From Brevirhabdus pacifica (GTDB taxonomy: Bacteria > Pseudomonadota > Alphaproteobacteria > Rhodobacterales > Rhodobacteraceae), in assembly GCF_002797755.1 (NCBI RefSeq), contig NZ_PGFI01000011.1, positions 186,001 to 250,000 of the forward strand: 64,000 nt of DNA. Reading direction: 5' to 3'. A program made the translations under genes and the position numbers. The stretch's first letter is position 1, and every line of letters starts with the position of its first letter. This document shows, in pieces, positions 25,502 to 33,063 of the stretch. Under the pieces are notes generated by a model that was not told where the DNA came from, did no database searches, and saw only the letters and a list, made by a program, of their open reading frames with translations.

Positions 25502-26947
25502 ATGGAAATGCCGTCCCCAGATCCCCGGATCATTGCCAAGAAATCTCGGCTGGTGTCGCTGCTTCAGGGTGTGTTGCCGGACGAGGCCGTTATCCATGAA
25601 CCCCATGAGACGCGCGCCTACGAATGTGACGCGCTGACCGCCTACAAGTGTCCGCCCCTCTGCGTGGTTCTGCCCGGCTCGACCGAGGAGGTGGCGGCGG
25701 TCATGCGCATCTGCCACGCCGAAGGCGTGCCCGTGGTGCCCCGCGGCGCGGGCACCTCGCTGGCAGGCGGCTCGCTTCCGACGGCCGACAGCGTCGTGCT
25801 GGGCGTCTCGCGCCTGACCGACGTGCTGGAGGCCGATTACCGCAACCGGGTGATCCGGGTGCAGACGGGCCGCACGAACCTGTCGGTAACCGGCGCCGTC
25901 GAGGAGAATGATTTCTTCTACGCGCCTGACCCCTCTAGCCAGCTTGCCTGCGCCATCGCGGGCAATATCGGCATGAACTCGGGCGGGGCGCATTGCCTGA
26001 AATACGGGGTGACGACCAACAACCTGCTGGGCGTCACCATGGTTCTGGCCGACGGCACCGTGACCCAGGTGGGCGGCGCCTACATGGATGCGCCGGGGCT
26101 GGACCTTCTGGGCGTGATCTGCGGTTCGGAGGGCCAGCTGGGCATCGTCACCGAGGCGACGCTGCGGATCCTGCACAAGCCCGAGGGCGCGCGCCCCGTG
26201 CTGATGGGCTTCGACAGCGACGAGGTTGCCGGTGAATGCGTCTCGGACATCATCAAGGCCGGGGTGCTTCCGGTCGCGATCGAGTTCATGGACCGCCCCT
26301 GCATCGAGGCGACCGAGGATTTCGCCAAGGCCGGCTATCCCATGTGCGAGGCGCTGCTGATCGTCGAAGTCGAGGGATCGCCCGCCGAGATCGACGAACA
26401 GCTTGCCGTGATCCTGGAGATCGCCCGCCGGCATGACCCGGTGGAGCTGCGCGAAAGCAAGTCGCCCGAGGAATCTGCCGCGATCTGGCTGGGCCGCAAG
26501 GCCGCCTTCGGCGCCATGGGTCAGATCAACGACTACATGTGCCTAGATGGGACGATCCCCGTCTCGGCCCTGCCGCTGGTCCTCAAGCGCATCAACGAGC
26601 TGTCGCGTCACTACGGGCTGGACGTGGCCAACGTCTTCCATGCGGGCGACGGCAACATGCACCCGCTGATCCTGTTCGATGCCAACAAGCCCGGCGACCT
26701 GGAACTGTGCGAGGCCTTCGGCGCGGACATCCTGAAATTGTGCGTCGAGGTCGGCGGTTGCCTGACCGGCGAGCATGGCGTCGGCATCGAAAAGCGCGAC
26801 CTGATGCTGGACCAGTATGATCCCGCCGACCTCGAGGCGCAGATGTGGGTCAAGGACGTGTTCGATCCGAACTGGCTTCTGAACCCCGCCAAGGTGTTCC
26901 CGCTGCGCGTCAGCGCCGGTCGCCGAGAAGCCTCCCGCGCCGCCTGA
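25502..26947 (+). CDS. glcD: Glycolate oxidase subunit GlcD, FAD-linked
   Basis: 481 residues, an FAD-linked oxidase of the PCMH/VAO fold. The FAD-binding part (about 50-230) includes VVPRGAGTSLAGGSLP and the glycine-rich stretch IAGNIGMNSGGAHCLKYG. The C-terminal part contains NVFHAGDGNMHPLI and LTGEHGVGIEKRDLM, typical of GlcD and D-lactate dehydrogenases. GlcD carries the catalytic site that oxidises glycolate to glyoxylate at the membrane. First of glcDEF; the start is the first of two ATGs (25502, 25508), with GGAG 8 bases before. The promoter carries a clear dyad. Confidence 0.95.
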   Translation: MEMPSPDPRIIAKKSRLVSLLQGVLPDEAVIHEPHETRAYECDALTAYKCPPLCVVLPGSTEEVAAVMRICHAEGVPVVPRGAGTSLAGGSLPTADSVVLGVSRLTDVLEADYRNRVIRVQTGRTNLSVTGAVEENDFFYAPDPSSQLACAIAGNIGMNSGGAHCLKYGVTTNNLLGVTMVLADGTVTQVGGAYMDAPGLDLLGVICGSEGQLGIVTEATLRILHKPEGARPVLMGFDSDEVAGECVSDIIKAGVLPVAIEFMDRPCIEATEDFAKAGYPMCEALLIVEVEGSPAEIDEQLAVILEIARRHDPVELRESKSPEESAAIWLGRKAAFGAMGQINDYMCLDGTIPVSALPLVLKRINELSRHYGLDVANVFHAGDGNMHPLILFDANKPGDLELCEAFGADILKLCVEVGGCLTGEHGVGIEKRDLMLDQYDPADLEAQMWVKDVFDPNWLLNPAKVFPLRVSAGRREASRAA

Positions 26948-27024
26948 CCCTCCGTTTCCGGCCGCCCCCGGGCGCTGGCCGGGCCGCCCCTCCGACCTGT
27001 TTCGTGCCGAAAGAAGATGCCGCC

Positions 27025-28164
27025 ATGATGACCCCCGCGACCGAAGCCGAGCTTGCCGAAGCTGTCCGTTCCGCGACCGCGCCCCTGTGGATCCGCGGCG
27101 GCGGCACGCGCCCCGTGGGCAACACCGCAGCCGAGGGCGCGGGCACCGTCCTCAGCACTGCCGGCCTGAGCGGGGTAGAGCTTTACGAGCCGGGGGCGCT
27201 GACACTCGTGGTCGCCGCCGGCACCCCCCTGGCCGAGGTCGAGCGGACACTGGCCGCCGAGAACCAGCGCCTGCCGTTCGAGCCGATGGACCACCGCGCC
27301 CTGCTGGGCACAACGGGCGAGCCCACGATCGGAGGCGTCGCGGCCGCCAACGTCTCGGGCCCGCGCCGGATCCAGGCCGGCGCCTGCCGCGACAGCATGA
27401 TTGGCCTGCGGTTCGTCGATGGTCAGGGCCAGGTTCTGCGCAACGGTGGCCGGGTGATGAAGAACGTCACCGGCTATGACCTCGTGAAGCTGCTGGCCGG
27501 CAGCCGGGGCACTCTGGGCGTGCTGACGCAGGTGGCCTTCAAGGTGCTGCCCGCCACCGCCGCACAGGCCACCGTGATGATCGAGGGGCTGTCGGATGCA
27601 TCCGCGGTCGACGCCATGTGCCGCGCGCTGGCCTCGCCCTTCGAGGTGTCGGGCGCGGCCCACATGCCCCAGGGCCCCGATGGCACCCCGCTGACCCTGC
27701 TGCGGGTCGAGGGGTTCGAGAATTCGGTCAAATACCGCGCCGGGCGCCTGCATGAGATGCTGGGCGCGCTGGGCCCCATGCGCGACGAGGCCGATCCCGA
27801 AGCCTCCGCCGCCTTGTGGAAATCGGTGCGCGACGCCGAAGCCTTCGCGGGCACTCCCGGCGATGTCTGGCGCCTGTCGGTGGTCCCGACCGAGGCCGCC
27901 GCCATCGCCACCCGCCTTGGCGCCGGGCGGTTGCTCTATGACTGGGGCGGCGGGCTGATCTGGGCCGAACTCGCCCCCGGCACCGATCTGCGCGCAAGGC
28001 TGGGCCCCTTCGAAGGGCACGCCACCCTGGTTCGCGCCAGCGCCGAGACCCGCAAGACGCTGCCGGTGTTCCAGCCGGAGCCTGCGCCCCTGGACCGGAT
28101 CGCTGCCGGCCTGCGCCAGCGGTTCGATCCGCGCAACCTGCTGAACCCCGGCCTGATGGCCTGA
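27025..28164 (+). CDS. glcE: Glycolate oxidase subunit GlcE
   Basis: 379 residues, a second FAD-binding subunit lacking the large C-terminal catalytic part of GlcD. It keeps the N-terminal PCMH features (WIRGGGTRPVG and VLRNGGRVMKNVTGYDLVK) and ends with RFDPRNLLNPGLM. It sits between glcD and glcF with 77- and 69-base gaps. It forms the GlcDEF complex that passes electrons from glycolate to the quinone pool. ATG at 27025 is followed directly by another at 27028; either may be used. Confidence 0.93.
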   Translation: MMTPATEAELAEAVRSATAPLWIRGGGTRPVGNTAAEGAGTVLSTAGLSGVELYEPGALTLVVAAGTPLAEVERTLAAENQRLPFEPMDHRALLGTTGEPTIGGVAAANVSGPRRIQAGACRDSMIGLRFVDGQGQVLRNGGRVMKNVTGYDLVKLLAGSRGTLGVLTQVAFKVLPATAAQATVMIEGLSDASAVDAMCRALASPFEVSGAAHMPQGPDGTPLTLLRVEGFENSVKYRAGRLHEMLGALGPMRDEADPEASAALWKSVRDAEAFAGTPGDVWRLSVVPTEAAAIATRLGAGRLLYDWGGGLIWAELAPGTDLRARLGPFEGHATLVRASAETRKTLPVFQPEPAPLDRIAAGLRQRFDPRNLLNPGLMA

Positions 28165-28233
28165 CCGGCCATTCCCGCCACCGCGCCGCGCCATTCCGCG
28201 CAGCCCACCGCCTGACCGCCCGAAGGACGCCCG

Positions 28234-29688
28234 ATGCAGACCCATTTCACCCCCGAGCAGCTGGCCGATCCGGCGATCGCCACCTCCAACAAGATCCTGC
28301 GCACCTGTGTGCATTGCGGGTTCTGCACCGCGACCTGCCCGACCTACCAGGTCCTGGGGGACGAGTTGGACAGCCCGCGCGGGCGCATCTACCTGATCAA
28401 GGACATGCTGGAAAACCAGCGCCCGGCGGATGAGAAGACGGTCAAGCACATCGACCGCTGCCTGAGCTGTCTGGCCTGCATGACCACCTGCCCGTCGGGG
28501 GTGCATTACATGCATCTGGTCGATCACGCCCGCGAGTATATCGAACAGACCTACAAGCGCCCCCTGACCGAGCGGATCCTGCGCAACGTGCTGGCCCATG
28601 TGCTGCCCTATCCGGGCCGGTTCCGGCTGGCGCTGCTGGGGGCCAAGATCGCGCGCCCCTTCCGCGGGCTGCTGCCCGACCCGCGCTTGCGGGCCATGCT
28701 GGACATGGCCCCGGCCACCATCCCGCCGGTCAGCCGCAACGACGATCCGCAGACCTTCGCCCCCGAGGCCGGCCCCGATACTGGGCCCGATACCGCACCC
28801 GAGGCCGCGCCGAAGATGCGGGTCGCGCTGATGACCGGCTGCGCGCAGCGGGCGCTGAACACCGACATCAACGATGCCACCATCCGCCTTCTGCGCCGTC
28901 TGGGCGCCGAGGTGGTGATCGCCGAGGGGCAGGGCTGTTGCGGGGCGCTGACCCATCACATGGGCAAGAGCGATCTGTCCCACGGATCGGCCGCGCGCAA
29001 CATCCGCGCCTGGAGCGCCGAGATCGACGGCAAGGGGCTGGACGCCATCGTCATCAACACTTCGGGCTGCGGCACGACGGTGAAGGATTACGGCCATATG
29101 TTCCGCAACGATCCGCTGGCCGAGGATGCGGCGCGGGTGGCGGGGCTGGCGATGGACGTCTCCGAGGTTCTGATGAAGCTGATGCCCGAGGGCACGCCCG
29201 CCCCCGCGACGGGCCGCGATGCCGCCCTGGACAATCTGGCGCGCGAGGGTGTGGCCGGCACCGACGGGGCCCATGCGCCGGGCGTGCGCAATGCCGACCC
29301 TGCCACCGCTGGCATTCCCCTGCACGCAGGCATTACCGTGGCCTATCACGCCGCCTGTTCGTTGCAGCACGGCCAGCAGATCAAGACCCACCCCAAGACC
29401 CTGCTGAAACGCGCGGGCTTTACCGTGGTCGAACCTGCGGACAGCCATCTGTGCTGCGGATCTGCCGGTACCTACAACCTGATGCAGCCCAAGATCTCGG
29501 GCCAGCTGAAGGAACGCAAGGTTCGGACGCTCGAGGCCAAGAACCCCGATGTGATCGCCGCCGGCAACATCGGCTGCATGATGCAGATCGGATCCGGCAC
29601 CGGCATTCCGGTCGTGCATACGGTCGAATTGCTGGACTGGGCGACGGGTGGGCCGGTGCCGCCGGCGTTGGACAAGATGCGGCCATAA
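28234..29688 (+). CDS. glcF: Glycolate oxidase iron-sulfur subunit GlcF
   Basis: 484 residues. Two 4Fe-4S motifs at the N-terminus (CVHCGFCTATCP and CLSCLACMTTCP) and the two CCG-type domains (QGCCGALTHHMG and HLCCGSAGTYN) are all present, matching electron-transfer GlcF. It is longer than E. coli GlcF because of two low-complexity insertions: an acidic Pro-rich one (about residues 170-192) and an alanine/glycine-rich one (about 314-350). Neither disturbs a Cys motif. A GAAGGA site precedes the ATG. It closes the operon. Confidence 0.94.
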   Translation: MQTHFTPEQLADPAIATSNKILRTCVHCGFCTATCPTYQVLGDELDSPRGRIYLIKDMLENQRPADEKTVKHIDRCLSCLACMTTCPSGVHYMHLVDHAREYIEQTYKRPLTERILRNVLAHVLPYPGRFRLALLGAKIARPFRGLLPDPRLRAMLDMAPATIPPVSRNDDPQTFAPEAGPDTGPDTAPEAAPKMRVALMTGCAQRALNTDINDATIRLLRRLGAEVVIAEGQGCCGALTHHMGKSDLSHGSAARNIRAWSAEIDGKGLDAIVINTSGCGTTVKDYGHMFRNDPLAEDAARVAGLAMDVSEVLMKLMPEGTPAPATGRDAALDNLAREGVAGTDGAHAPGVRNADPATAGIPLHAGITVAYHAACSLQHGQQIKTHPKTLLKRAGFTVVEPADSHLCCGSAGTYNLMQPKISGQLKERKVRTLEAKNPDVIAAGNIGCMMQIGSGTGIPVVHTVELLDWATGGPVPPALDKMRP

Positions 29689-29739
29689 TTCCGACAAGTC
29701 CGCCTGCCATCGGTGACGCGACATAGTGCAGGAAGCCCA

Positions 29740-30687
29740 ATGAAAGACCTCGCGATCATCCTGATCGGCCTGATGCTCGGCATGGCGATCGGCTCGGCCG
29801 GCGCCCAGGGCGCCGAGCGTTCGGCGGAACGTGGGGTCTTTGCCCGCCTGGCGGCTCCTACTAACGCGGAAGCAACGACCGGGCGCGCCGAGGATGCAGC
29901 GGCCGAGGCCGCCATCGCACGCATTGCGGCGGACGACACTCCACTCGCGGCGATGGAGACCGCCGACCAGAGCCGCGGCTACGAGGCCGTGGGCCGGCTG
30001 GACATCGGCGCCGGCACCTTCTGCACCGGGTCACTAATCTCGGAGACGGTGGTCCTGACGGCGGCCCATTGCCTTTATGACCAGGACACCGGCAAGCGCC
30101 TTGATGACCGCACGATCACCTTCCGCGCCGGCCTGCGCGGCGGCCGGGCCGAGGCCAGCCGCAGCGTCCGCCGAAGCGTCGTGCACCCGCAATACGACAC
30201 GGCACTGGCCAACACCTCGGCATCGGTTGCAAGCGACCTTGCCCTGATCGAACTGACGCAGCCGATCCGCAAGTCGGGCATCAGCCCATTTACCATTCAC
30301 GCGGGCGCCATGCGCGGTGACGAGGTGCGCGTCGTCTCCTACGCCATCGACCGGCAGGACGCCCCGTCGATGCAGGAAATGTGCCACGTGCTGGGCGATC
30401 TGGACGCGGCGCAGGTTCTGTCCTGCGACATCGATTTCGGCGCCTCGGGCGCGCCCATCTTCGCTGCCCCCGGCGGCGTGCCGCAGATCGTCTCGATCGT
30501 GGCAGCCAAGGCAAGGATGGGGGGCGCGCCCGTGGCGTTGGTCGCCCCTTTGGGCGACAACCTGGCACCCCTCCTGGCACAGCTTGAGGCCAGCGACGGC
30601 GTCTTCTCCCGGCCCCGTCCGGCGGTGCAGGTCCTGCCCCGTGACGAGGCGCGGCGCAAGGCCGGCGCCAAGTTCCTCCGCCCCTGA
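29740..30687 (+). CDS. Secreted trypsin-like serine protease
   Basis: 315 residues. A signal peptide (residues 1-23, ending SAGAQG) exports it. An S1-fold triad is visible: His110 in LTAAHC, Asp166 in SDLALIEL, and Ser236 in the GASGAP motif (in place of the usual GDSGGP). Ala in place of the Asp in that motif is seen in several bacterial trypsin-like proteins. About 60 Ala/Glu-rich residues separate the signal from the catalytic domain and may be a propeptide. Periplasmic or extracellular. It follows glcF by 51 bases; GGAAG precedes the ATG. Confidence 0.86.
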   Translation: MKDLAIILIGLMLGMAIGSAGAQGAERSAERGVFARLAAPTNAEATTGRAEDAAAEAAIARIAADDTPLAAMETADQSRGYEAVGRLDIGAGTFCTGSLISETVVLTAAHCLYDQDTGKRLDDRTITFRAGLRGGRAEASRSVRRSVVHPQYDTALANTSASVASDLALIELTQPIRKSGISPFTIHAGAMRGDEVRVVSYAIDRQDAPSMQEMCHVLGDLDAAQVLSCDIDFGASGAPIFAAPGGVPQIVSIVAAKARMGGAPVALVAPLGDNLAPLLAQLEASDGVFSRPRPAVQVLPRDEARRKAGAKFLRP

Positions 30688-30752
30688 GCGGGGGCCTGTT
30701 TCCGGTCACGATTACAGGTGCTTGACTGTCCGTGACGGGCCAGACCCATCCC

Positions 30753-30784
30753 CTTGAAACGCCGAAAATGCGATCCTATCTCAG
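30753..30784 (+). promoter_or_regulatory. Sigma-32 (RpoH) heat-shock promoter
   Basis: CTTG (30753-30756), 18 bases, then CCTATCTCAG (30775-30784). This matches the alphaproteobacterial RpoH consensus CTTG-N17/18-CYTATNTNNG at every defined position. Transcription should start about 30790, 85 bases before the small heat-shock gene. Confidence 0.85.
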
Positions 30785-30878
30785 GTCTGTCGGACGCCAC
30801 ACCAGGGTCCGACAGCACGAAATGGCCGGTCCCGAGGGACGGCCGTGATGAACATCGCTCAAAGAGGATGAAACCATG
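30785..30878 (+). promoter_or_regulatory. ROSE-type RNA thermometer in the hsp20 leader
   Basis: Just before the start codon, 30853-30856 (CAUC) and 30858-30859 (CU) pair with 30865-30870 (AGGAUG), closing a CAAAG loop and leaving G30857 bulged. This buries the AGGA ribosome site and reproduces the conserved UYGCU motif (UCGCU, 30855-30859) and bulged G opposite the SD that define ROSE elements. A second stem lies upstream (GGCC-G-GUCC at 30824-30832 with GGACGGCC at 30837-30844). A 9-bp inverted repeat (30787-30795 with 30807-30815) straddles the predicted transcription start. Confidence 0.75.
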
Positions 30879-31373
30879 CGTAATCTTGATTTTGCACCGC
30901 TTTACCGCGCGACCGTCGGCTTCGACCAGATCGCCGACCTGATGGACCGGGTCCTGACCAATGACGTGGCCCAGCCCAGCTATCCGCCCTACAACATCGA
31001 AAAGACCGCCGACGACGCCTATCGCATCTCGATCGCCGTCGCGGGCTTCAGCGACTCCGACCTGTCGGTCGAGGTTCGCGAGAACGCGCTGATCGTCTCG
31101 GCCCGCAAGTCCGAGACCGAGGAGGACGCCGGCCGCACCTACCTGCACCGTGGCATCGCCACCCGCGCGTTCGAGCGTCGTTTCCACCTGGCCGACCATG
31201 TCCGGGTCGAGGGTGCGACCCATGCCGACGGCATGCTGCACATCGACCTGGTCCGGGAAATCCCCGAGGCCCTGAAGCCACGCCAGATCCAGATCGCGCG
31301 CTCGGCCGATGTGGACGTGAAGGCCGTCACCGACGGCTCGGCCGCCAAAAAGGACGAGAAAACCGTCAACTGA
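30876..31373 (+). CDS. Small heat-shock protein, Hsp20/IbpA type
   Basis: 165 residues. An alpha-crystallin domain occupies about 38-130, from YNIEKTADDAYRISIAVAGF to the A-x-x-x-G-x-L-like ADGMLHIDLV. N-terminal MRNLDFAPLYRATVGFDQI matches IbpA of alphaproteobacteria. It is an ATP-independent holdase for unfolding proteins. Expression should be heat-induced twice over: transcription from the sigma-32 promoter and translation through the ROSE leader. It has its own terminator at 31427-31458. The Ala/Lys-rich tail after 140 is unusual in length. Confidence 0.95.
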   Translation: MRNLDFAPLYRATVGFDQIADLMDRVLTNDVAQPSYPPYNIEKTADDAYRISIAVAGFSDSDLSVEVRENALIVSARKSETEEDAGRTYLHRGIATRAFERRFHLADHVRVEGATHADGMLHIDLVREIPEALKPRQIQIARSADVDVKAVTDGSAAKKDEKTVN

Positions 31374-31426
31374 TCGCGCAGGGGCGCCCGGGCCTGGTCC
31401 GGGCGTCCTCTGTCGCAAGGTCCCGG

Positions 31427-31458
31427 GGCGCGGTGGCAACAGGCCACCGCGCCTTTTT
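31427..31458 (+). terminator. Intrinsic terminator of the hsp20 gene
   Basis: A perfect 10-bp GC-rich stem (GGCGCGGTGG at 31427-31436 with CCACCGCGCC at 31444-31453), a 7-base loop and a TTTTT run (31454-31458), 53 bases after the hsp20 stop. Confidence 0.9.
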
Positions 31459-31551
31459 GCTGTCCGGCCCCGCGCGCTTTCCCCCGTGGGGTCGGGCTGT
31501 TAGGCTTGCCGGAAAAGAGCAGACAGAAAACAAAGACCGGTCAGGACCCCA

Positions 31552-33063
31552 ATGCAGGCGGCAGTCAACCTGTGCGACGAAGCCGGGCGCGATTTCGGCA
31601 CGGTGTTTCGCCGTCAATTCGCCCTTACCCGCACCCAGCGCGGCCCCCAGGACGGCCAAGGGGGCTGGTCGCGGCGTTCGCTGGGCGGCTGGCACCTGCA
31701 CCATTGTCCCGAGCTGCGGGTCTGCGACGTGCTCGACGTGGCAGGGCAGGTGGCGGGGTTCTTCATCGGCATCGGTGTCACGGGCGAGGGGCGCGCCATC
31801 ACCGACGCGCTGCGCCTGGCCGCCACGATGGGGGAGGCCGGTTTCGCCGACAGTGCGGAGGCGCAGATCGCCCGTATCGCCGGACGCTATTGCGTGGTCA
31901 TGTTGGCCCCGGGTTGCCGCCGGGTCTATTTCGACCCGGTGCTGGACCTGTCGGTCGTCTGCAACCGCGACGACCGGATGATCGCAAGCTCGCTGCTGCT
32001 GGCGCTGGATCGCCCGCTGCGCGAGAACAACCGCTTCAACCACCGCATGGTGCTGCACCGGACCCACCGCTACGGGCTGGGCCATACCCGCGACGTGGGT
32101 GTGCGGCGGATGATCCCCAACCATTACCTCGACCTCGACAGCTTCGCGCTGCACCGGCACTGGCCCAAGGGGGACGAGAACCTCGACGCGACCTCGGAGG
32201 AGGCCGGCGATGGCATAGACGAGATCGTCGCGCGGCTGGGCCAGGTCTTTGGCGCGCTGGTGCGAACCCATGACTGCGCGGTGCCGGTCTCGGGCGGGAA
32301 TGACAGCCGCAACCTGATCGCCTGCGGCAAGGACCATCTGGGCCACGTGCGGGCCTTCTATTCGCACCGCATCAACAAGATGTCGGGGTTCGACTGCATG
32401 GTCGCCCGGATGCTGATGAAGAAGCTGCGTCAGCCGCATCAGACAATCGACGTGCGCGCCCCCGAGCACGAGGACCGGTTCGAGCCTGCCCGCCAGCGCG
32501 CCGCCCGCTGGGATTTCGCCTTTCGCACCGGCTACCAGGCGCTGGGCAGCGATCACCCGGTGCTGGTCGCCGCCGATCTGGCCCCCCGGGCAGAGGTCGT
32601 CCTGCGCGGCAATGTCATGGATATCCTGCGGGCCAACCAGTACAACAGCGACAATCTCGAGGCGCCTTTCGACCTGCGCTACGGGCTGTCGCGGCTGCGG
32701 ATGACGCCGGACACGGACGCGGTGCAACTGGCGGTATGGGGCCCGGAATACCAGAACTGGGCCGACACCCTGCCCGAGAACGCGCGCGGCCGGATCTATG
32801 ATTTCGCCTTCTGCGAGCAGCTTCTTCCCAACACCATGGGCGGCACGCTCTACGGCTTTGCCCAAAGCTTCTACATGAACCCATTCGCCGACCGGCGGAT
32901 GCTGGAGCTGGCCCTGCGGATCGCGCCGGCGAAACGCTATCGCGGCTGGGTCAACCGCGAGATCGTCAAGCGCGCCTCGAGCGACCTGAACATCTTTCCG
33001 CGCACGAACGAACTGCGCCGCCGCAGCGAGATGCACGAGGCGGTGGACCGCCGCTTCTTCTGA
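31552..33063 (+). CDS. Asparagine-synthetase-like protein
   Basis: 503 residues. The C-terminal part holds an ATP-pyrophosphatase loop, VPVSGGNDSR (about residues 244-253), which matches SGGxDS of the asparagine synthetase domain. The N-terminal 200 residues resemble a glutaminase-fold domain, but Cys does not follow the initiator Met, so it probably cannot release ammonia from glutamine. The enzyme would adenylate a carboxylate and couple it to another amine, as in beta-lactam or lasso-peptide synthetases, or tailor a glycan. It stands alone between an hsp20 and a leftward gabD. Its role is unknown. Confidence 0.72.
   Translation: MQAAVNLCDEAGRDFGTVFRRQFALTRTQRGPQDGQGGWSRRSLGGWHLHHCPELRVCDVLDVAGQVAGFFIGIGVTGEGRAITDALRLAATMGEAGFADSAEAQIARIAGRYCVVMLAPGCRRVYFDPVLDLSVVCNRDDRMIASSLLLALDRPLRENNRFNHRMVLHRTHRYGLGHTRDVGVRRMIPNHYLDLDSFALHRHWPKGDENLDATSEEAGDGIDEIVARLGQVFGALVRTHDCAVPVSGGNDSRNLIACGKDHLGHVRAFYSHRINKMSGFDCMVARMLMKKLRQPHQTIDVRAPEHEDRFEPARQRAARWDFAFRTGYQALGSDHPVLVAADLAPRAEVVLRGNVMDILRANQYNSDNLEAPFDLRYGLSRLRMTPDTDAVQLAVWGPEYQNWADTLPENARGRIYDFAFCEQLLPNTMGGTLYGFAQSFYMNPFADRRMLELALRIAPAKRYRGWVNREIVKRASSDLNIFPRTNELRRRSEMHEAVDRRFF

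Follow-up and report, generated by a model that had tools for sequence, protein, structure and literature searches.

The hsp20 leader of Brevirhabdus pacifica as a very probable three-hairpin ROSE-type RNA thermometer with a bulged G in each hairpin

The hsp20 locus and its leader

We analysed a stretch of 64,000 nt from contig NZ_PGFI01000011.1 of Brevirhabdus pacifica (the window), in which a structured leader precedes an hsp20 gene for an IbpA-like small heat-shock protein (Table 1). The Pfam HSP20 domain was found directly 3' of the leader, where the first-pass annotation had placed the gene. The 5' limit of the untranslated region depends on a putative transcription start near 30787, just before the first hairpin (SL-I), as suggested by the promoter pattern. 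RpoH (sigma-32) promoters have the consensus CTTGAAA, a spacer of about 15 nt and a CCCAT-type -10 element. The sigma-32-type promoter that had been proposed for the gene was recovered as a sequence pattern, in that the strict form CTTGNAN-N10..17-CYNANNT matched 67 of the 81 related leaders described below and was absent from 14; in the matching leaders its -10 part ended 89-111 nt 5' of the start codon. A consensus scan of 30600-31600 found no sigma-70-like promoter. The proposed two-level heat switch would rest on this conserved RpoH-like pattern and its predicted start.

Around the gene, a 503-aa ORF downstream of hsp20 (31552-33063, plus strand) had no Pfam match at E ≤ 0.001. A 1037-aa ATG ORF on the minus strand (26611-29724) is probably an artefact of high G+C content; it lies antisense to two Pfam-supported genes on the plus strand, encoding a FAD_binding_4 protein (26845-28164) and a CCG/Fer4 protein (28234-29688).

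Table 1. Positions of the promoter elements, leader hairpins, gene and terminator in the window
Feature	Position	Strand	Description or basis
-35-like element CTTGAAA, RpoH (sigma-32)-type promoter	30753..30759	+	Conserved pattern
-10-like element CCTATCT, same RpoH-type promoter	30775..30781	+	15 nt after the -35-like element
SL-I	30787..30815	+	11 bp, single bulged G30796; MFE fold and hairpin finder
SL-II	30824..30844	+	8 bp (10 in MFE fold), single bulged G30829; MFE fold and hairpin finder
SL-III, presumed thermosensing hairpin	30853..30870	+	7 bp, AAA loop, bulged G30857
UCGCU motif opposite the Shine-Dalgarno sequence	30855-30859	+	Window sequence
Shine-Dalgarno core GAGGA, sequestered within SL-III	30864..30868	+	(G/A)AGGA in 81/81 leaders
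hsp20, IbpA-like small heat-shock protein, 165 aa	30876..31373	+	Pfam HSP20 PF00011, 65.9 bits
Probable intrinsic terminator of the hsp20 transcript	31425..31455	+	13-pair stem then T-run; consensus scan only

The hairpin nearest the gene, SL-III, was read from the plus strand of the window as CAUCGCUCAAAGAGGAUG (30853-30870). The first-pass annotation had paired 30853-30856 and 30858-30859 with 30865-30870 around a bulged G30857, and the MFE fold at 30 °C gave the identical helix (C30853-G30870, A30854-U30869, U30855-A30868, C30856-G30867, C30858-G30866 and U30859-A30865) with the same G bulged; this base is G in 80/80 rows of the alignment described below. A seventh pair, C30860-G30864, was absent from that annotation and leaves a loop of 3 nt. 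The helix stops short of the hsp20 ATG at 30876. The UYGCU motif facing the Shine-Dalgarno sequence (SD), with an unpaired G, is thus present as UCGCU, and U(C/U)GCU is kept in 81/81 leaders. When G30857 was deleted in silico, SL-III became a perfect helix and the SD was fully closed. SL-III is a genuine hairpin, and it buries the ribosome-binding site of this IbpA-like gene.

The SD hairpin had been identified correctly, but the element proved larger, with two further hairpins upstream (SL-I and SL-II) that had been missed. In the literature, ROSE-like elements are placed in the 5' UTR of small heat-shock genes, where heating exposes the SD and increases translation; they comprise two to four stem-loops over 60 to >100 nt and a U(U/C)GCU motif imperfectly paired with the SD, with a bulged G inside the motif. 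The leader has three hairpins across about 90 nt and this same motif arrangement. The computed stability at 37 °C was lowest for SL-III (-4.2 kcal/mol), compared with -18.0 for SL-I and -13.0 for SL-II, and the SL-III of E. coli ibpA was computed to be equally stable (-4.1 kcal/mol). Folding at 30 and 42 °C had been suggested as a check. The helix formed at 30 °C as expected, but the SD stayed closed at 42 °C: its unpaired probability, calculated with ViennaRNA parameters that omit the non-canonical pairs reported for ROSE, was 0.12 at 42 °C, 0.17 at 50 °C and 0.51 at 70 °C. The E. coli ibpA leader was more responsive by the same method, rising from 0.11 at 30 °C to 0.20 at 42 °C. Since the SD did not open at 42 °C in the window and opened only slightly in the E. 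coli control, in-silico melting neither supports nor refutes a thermometer.

Conservation and distribution of the leader

Relatives were selected by protein similarity, so that the choice of leaders was independent of leader sequence; the best 80 of 581 protein relatives from named genomes, together with the window, gave 81 leaders. All 81 contained U(C/U)GCU and, between it and the ATG, (G/A)AGGA; the first motif was UCGCU in 78 and UUGCU in 3. We aligned 80 of these leaders with MAFFT without structure fitting (alignment A1; L041, whose locus numbering differs, was omitted). Across the three helices, 88.5% of pairs were standard, and none of 500 shuffles, whose mean was 0.163, attained the covariation score of 0.243. 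Four of five covariation measures exceeded all 500 shuffles, and the fifth was reached by 2/500. Standard pairing dropped to 37-66% when partners were slid by 1-3 columns. Both sides had changed in 6/8 modelled pairs of SL-I, 5/7 of SL-II and 3/7 of SL-III, where three pairs were invariant. RNAalifold run on the MAFFT alignment recovered SL-III and part of SL-I and missed SL-II.

A covariance model, R1, was built from 80 protein-selected leaders, and 65 rows chosen by R1, including the window and E. coli, made up a class-wide alignment. Its covariation score was 0.574 versus 0.225 for shuffled alignments, in a set both selected by and fitted to R1, and both-side changes were seen in 7/8 pairs of SL-I, 7/7 of SL-II and 5/7 of SL-III.

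The Rfam models gave a different picture. At gathering cut-offs, no ROSE match was found anywhere in the window. In the Infernal search suggested by the first-pass annotation, RF00435 matched at 24.7 bits, below its cut-off of 45, and ROSE_2 gave nothing at E ≤ 10. Under permissive settings the RF00435 match ran over the full model (1-94) with E 0.06 for the 221 nt of 30700-30920; taken alone, it is a lead and falls short of proof. A search of the window's whole genome with RF00435 returned an unrelated place at 16.7 bits and did not return this match. Among relatives, nothing was found at gathering cut-offs in 20/20; in another 20, searched to E 0.5, the best ROSE score was 36.8 bits and the best ROSE_2 score 30.4 bits, both below the cut-offs of 45 and 65. 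Rfam likewise found none in 19 loci of other alphaproteobacterial genomes picked among R1 hits, while the E. coli ibpA control scored 100.4 bits with ROSE_2 (RF01832) in the same search. Because the scores lie below the cut-offs of 45 and 65 bits, we rejected strict-sense membership of RF00435 or RF01832. Matches of snoR1, CRISPR-DR36 and Sphinx_2 in the leader were also rejected as chance level (E 3.3 to 4.8).

R1 performed differently from the Rfam models. In a sample of 196 genomes from the order, of which the listed ones belong to the window's family, it matched 193 at E ≤ 0.01. Two of the misses, G011 and G113, were regained before hsp20 with laxer filters (2.8e-8 and 1.5e-7). The third, G085, was the sole genome of the 196 with no convincing match even then; its only match, at 0.027, lies at a locus with no hsp20 relative. 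The best-scoring 30 loci from the order all precede hsp20. In the class, R1 matched 79/289 genomes, 75 of the matching genomes being outside the window's family; of 79 out-of-family hits, the 66 better-scoring were examined and 65 adjoined an hsp20 relative. In the phylum, 38/199 genomes matched, 8 of them outside the class, from which L318 and L332 were inspected. The order, class and phylum samples overlap. The E. coli ibpA leader was found by R1 at 27.9 bits.

The distribution across hsp20 types was surveyed with 100 distinct ORFs from 46 genomes (102 before two duplicate proteins were removed), grouped by E-value and a loose pattern. At E ≤ 0.1, R1 matched before 34/37 IbpA-like genes, 19/41 of a second IbpA-related group and 2/2 others; the class-B-like hsp20 leaders, a negative control, gave 0/20 at the same threshold. 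L298, cut by a contig end and with little or no leader, was still scored as a miss, and L308 and L309, the weakest Pfam places, yielded no ORF with an hsp20 profile.

The window genome has a second hsp20 gene (C1:670061) with a short ROSE-like leader (L002:1311-1383, that is, 669871-669943 of contig C1 of G000). It scored 22.4 bits with R1 and has UCGCUU opposite AAGGA, and its MFE fold at 25 and 37 °C contains an SL-I with a bulged G. Its protein retains R93 and Y34 and has T at site 98. Separately, R1 hits in the order with no hsp20 relative (L122-L126, L128-L130, L132-L139) were taken as noise. The least clear of these was L129 of relative G010, where UCGCUCGACAGGGAGGAUUAUCCAUG lies on the minus strand at about 1501-1526 before a 332-aa ORF (R1 E 0.007 per genome). 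This ORF resembles an ABC sugar-binding protein, and the motif upstream of it may be a matter of chance.

We considered whether the structure might be a chance fold beside an ordinary ribosome-binding site, devoid of any regulatory role. The weak Rfam score, viewed in isolation, and folding models that do not melt at 42 °C would agree with this, but conservation in 81/81 leaders, covariation above both the shuffled and the slid controls, and occurrence in 193/196 genomes speak against it; the idea is scarcely credible, and a chance hairpin was rejected on the conservation and the covariation. Given the sub-threshold Rfam score, it is the conservation of the leader that decides for a ROSE-type reading. 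The first-pass annotation had staked its reading on an Rfam hit or on conservation of the pairing in related leaders, and the pairing is conserved. Its interpretation as a ROSE-like thermometer is supported, the defining features of sequence and structure being present and conserved on the expected type of gene.

We therefore regard the 5' leader of this ibpA-type hsp20 mRNA, behind its RpoH-like promoter, as very probably a three-hairpin ROSE-type RNA thermometer. The gene, the helices, their conservation and covariation, and the relative stabilities are the computed parts of this model. Transcription would begin at the RpoH-type promoter immediately before SL-I. At ordinary temperature, SL-III would pair UCGCU with the SD around the bulged G and so block ribosome binding. 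By analogy with characterised ROSE elements, heat would melt SL-III, the weakest hairpin, while SL-I and SL-II remain folded, allowing translation, and the conserved promoter would contribute a transcriptional level of control. Since 40/40 tested relatives were missed at the cut-offs, annotation that relies on Rfam will overlook this thermometer. An RNA thermometer in 193/196 sampled genomes of the order that current Rfam models overlook would be an annotation gap useful to know.

Bulged Gs of the three hairpins and a possible role of IbpA

A bulged G is conserved in every hairpin of the leader and not in SL-III alone, a pattern shared with E. coli ibpA. In alignment A1 the bulge column was G in 80/80 rows for SL-I (G30796), 75/80 for SL-II (G30829) and 80/80 for SL-III (G30857). 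By eye, the SL-II bulge of L023, L034, L060, L063, L064 and L081 is also G, shifted by one pair. The class-wide alignment gave 65/65 for SL-I, 57/61 rows with a letter for SL-II and 65/65 for SL-III. Of the 81 protein-chosen leaders, 53 had three bulged-G hairpins in the MFE fold and 25 had two; 2 had a single one and 1 had none. A hairpin finder applied to the same leaders reported a G bulge for SL-I in 69, SL-II in 74, SL-III in 80 and all three in 67; it fixes the SL-III bulge at the G of U(C/U)GCU and tests only the stem there. Several of its misses arose because a competing hairpin was chosen.

A larger set was compared with controls. From loci L004-L208, 23 were excluded (17 with no hsp20 hit, including L196, and 6 failing the strict motif pattern); dropping L115 and collapsing duplicates reduced the resulting 183 leaders to 175. 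Single-base bulges of the 5' arm at 30 °C were G in 423/475 cases in these 175 distinct leaders, versus 40/288 in 525 dinucleotide shuffles; the leaders had passed a filter for the SL-III motif, and part of them came from R1, a model that already contains the Gs. At least three such bulged Gs occurred in 92/175 leaders versus 0/525 shuffles. Coding windows from these loci served as a further control: of 474, 115 contained no such hairpin, and the bulged base of the best one was C in 148, U in 91, G in 73 and A in 47. The base 5' of the bulged G was a pyrimidine in 141/145, 154/158 and 171/171 G-bulged hairpins of SL-I, SL-II and SL-III. The bases facing the bulge were GG in SL-I and SL-III and mostly AA or AG in SL-II. 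The E. coli K-12 ibpA leader has the same three bulged-G hairpins, as does L332, which lies outside the class and encodes a protein close to E. coli IbpA; L318 has two in its MFE fold, and L319 and L322 have no SL-I bulge. A conserved bulged G in hairpins that are not expected to melt offers a handle on the role of the 5' hairpins and on recognition by IbpA.

One explanation is that SL-I and SL-II act only as folding scaffolds or stabilisers of the mRNA 5' end, the bulged Gs reflecting a constraint internal to the RNA, such as a folding path, a tertiary contact or avoidance of nucleases. This is plausible, if not quite probable. Both upstream hairpins are far more stable than SL-III, and the available text of PMC3669281 suggests that 5' hairpins assist folding or stabilise the mRNA; it reports derepression of Pseudomonas ibpA when hairpin I is disrupted, and it cites B. 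japonicum ROSE1, which responds less when its first three hairpins are missing. A scaffold leaves the near-constant G unexplained, however, given 423/475 bulges in real leaders against 40/288 in shuffled sequences and 73/359 hairpins of coding windows.

Another explanation, which we consider rather unlikely, is that IbpA oligomers prevent translation by docking on all three bulged-G hairpins, and that heat titrates IbpA onto aggregates, instead of or besides melting. According to the portions of PMC10474464 that we drew on, IbpA binds to the 5' UTR of its own mRNA in E. coli, C. neteri and V. harveyi, with repression of translation, and its ligands seem to be structured RNAs, thermometers among them. 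In E. coli, the same paper finds R93 irreplaceable, and positive charge at R97/K98 and an aromatic residue at 34 are both required. The window protein, aligned with E. coli IbpA, has these key residues as Y34, R93, R97 and R98. Among 182 proteins behind the leaders, R was kept at site 93 in 180, Y at site 34 in 180, R at site 97 in 173, and K or R at site 98 in 167. Docking would also fit the pyrimidine next to the bulged G in nearly all hairpins and the retention of that G in SL-I and SL-II (80/80 and 75/80), hairpins not expected to melt, while their stem pairs change on both sides. Since IbpA represses itself through R93, which is conserved here, the hairpins may be proposed as its docks.

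Several observations argue against docking. Conservation of the repression in alphaproteobacteria goes no further than a suggestion in the same portions of PMC10474464. The co-occurrence of R93 and ROSE is confounded by descent, because R93 follows membership of the IbpA clade itself. Moreover, L288 (S at site 93), L238 (G) and L265 (A, weak) lack R93 yet have an R1 hit, as does L142 with Q at this site. The bulge of SL-II is faced by other bases than those of SL-I and SL-III, and the SD hairpin of Pseudomonas thermoregulates by itself in the account of PMC3669281. The MFE folds of the four leaders without R93 held two bulged-G hairpins in L238 and L142 and one in L288 and L265, numbers too few to decide. 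L238, L288 and L265 offer a natural test of whether R93 and the bulged Gs are linked.

A more general form of the docking idea is a speculative one in our estimate. It would make the ROSE leaders of alpha- and gammaproteobacterial ibpA genes a triplicated recognition unit, kept in evolution by the docking of oligomeric IbpA via the R93 loop. The candidate unit, proposed with as much reserve, would consist of a trio of hairpins; in each, a single G would bulge from the 5' arm beside a pyrimidine, with two to five pairs between it and the loop. If so, one RNA would serve both as a thermometer, through the melting of SL-III, and as a sensor of chaperone occupancy, with aggregates titrating IbpA off SL-I to SL-III; the non-melting 5' hairpins would then gain a function that PMC3669281, in the text available, leaves open.

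Comparison with known systems

The two Rfam families each resemble a part of the leader, RF00435 at SL-I and RF01832 at SL-II. RF00435, the rhizobial hspA type with B. japonicum hspA as founding member, is likewise an sHSP leader; it shares the bulged G of SL-I before CC/GG and a UUGCU-type motif paired with the SD in the 3' hairpin. Its consensus has no bulged G in SL-II, whereas the window has one, and, again unlike that consensus, the SD hairpin of the window is short, with the SD paired and the AUG unpaired. ROSE_2 (RF01832) shares a CCUGUCC/GGAAGG-like SL-II with a bulged G, UCGCU opposite the SD and the AUGCGUA start of the ibpA gene, as seen in relative L064; it differs in that the window gave no match at E ≤ 10 and the best of 20 relatives reached 30.4 bits against 65. 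In Rfam, the bulge already appears in the consensus lines, for RF00435 at SL-I and for RF01832 at SL-II. A description of the triple bulged G was not found in the open-licence literature; the core ROSE papers lie outside that scope and may describe it.

The short ROSE-like leader of Pseudomonas ibpA, as presented in the available text of PMC3669281, shares a short U(U/C)GCU SD hairpin, an unpaired AUG and a stable upstream hairpin, but has two hairpins where the window has three. In that system, hairpin II, which carries U(U/C)GCU, melts, and hairpin I stays closed up to 50 °C; deletion of the bulged G alone raised fold induction in P. putida and lowered it to 1.4-fold in P. aeruginosa. The same text treats ROSE elements of three to four hairpins as classical, with a 5' hairpin role that is not fully understood, and counts E. 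coli ibpA as a characterised thermometer. IbpA autorepression, as covered in the portions of PMC10474464 used above, concerns the same kind of leader, and the window protein shares Y34, R93, R97 and a basic residue at 98; its demonstration there is in gammaproteobacteria only.

Closest in lineage is Nautella sp. R11, of the roseobacter clade, for which the relevant part of PMC3230580 reports typical ROSE-like motifs upstream of ibpA and hspD, genes of the type studied here; the report differs in being one sentence long, with no structure in that part. The hspD motif of Nautella sp. R11 in that part is comparable to the short leader of the second hsp20 gene of the window genome. More widely, an excerpt of PMC4166951 credits Waldminghaus 2005 with >40 ROSE-type elements in alpha- and gammaproteobacteria, and excerpts of PMC11342760 and PMC12857270 describe ROSE-like and ROSE-G motifs at ABC transporter genes as well. 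The motif at L129 is comparable to the ROSE-like motifs upstream of ABC transporter genes in PMC11342760. Because ROSE-type elements have been reported before, including in a roseobacter, the element in the window belongs to an already known and well-studied class. Its existence is unsurprising as a class member; what goes further is the gap in Rfam and one testable oddity, the repeated bulged G.
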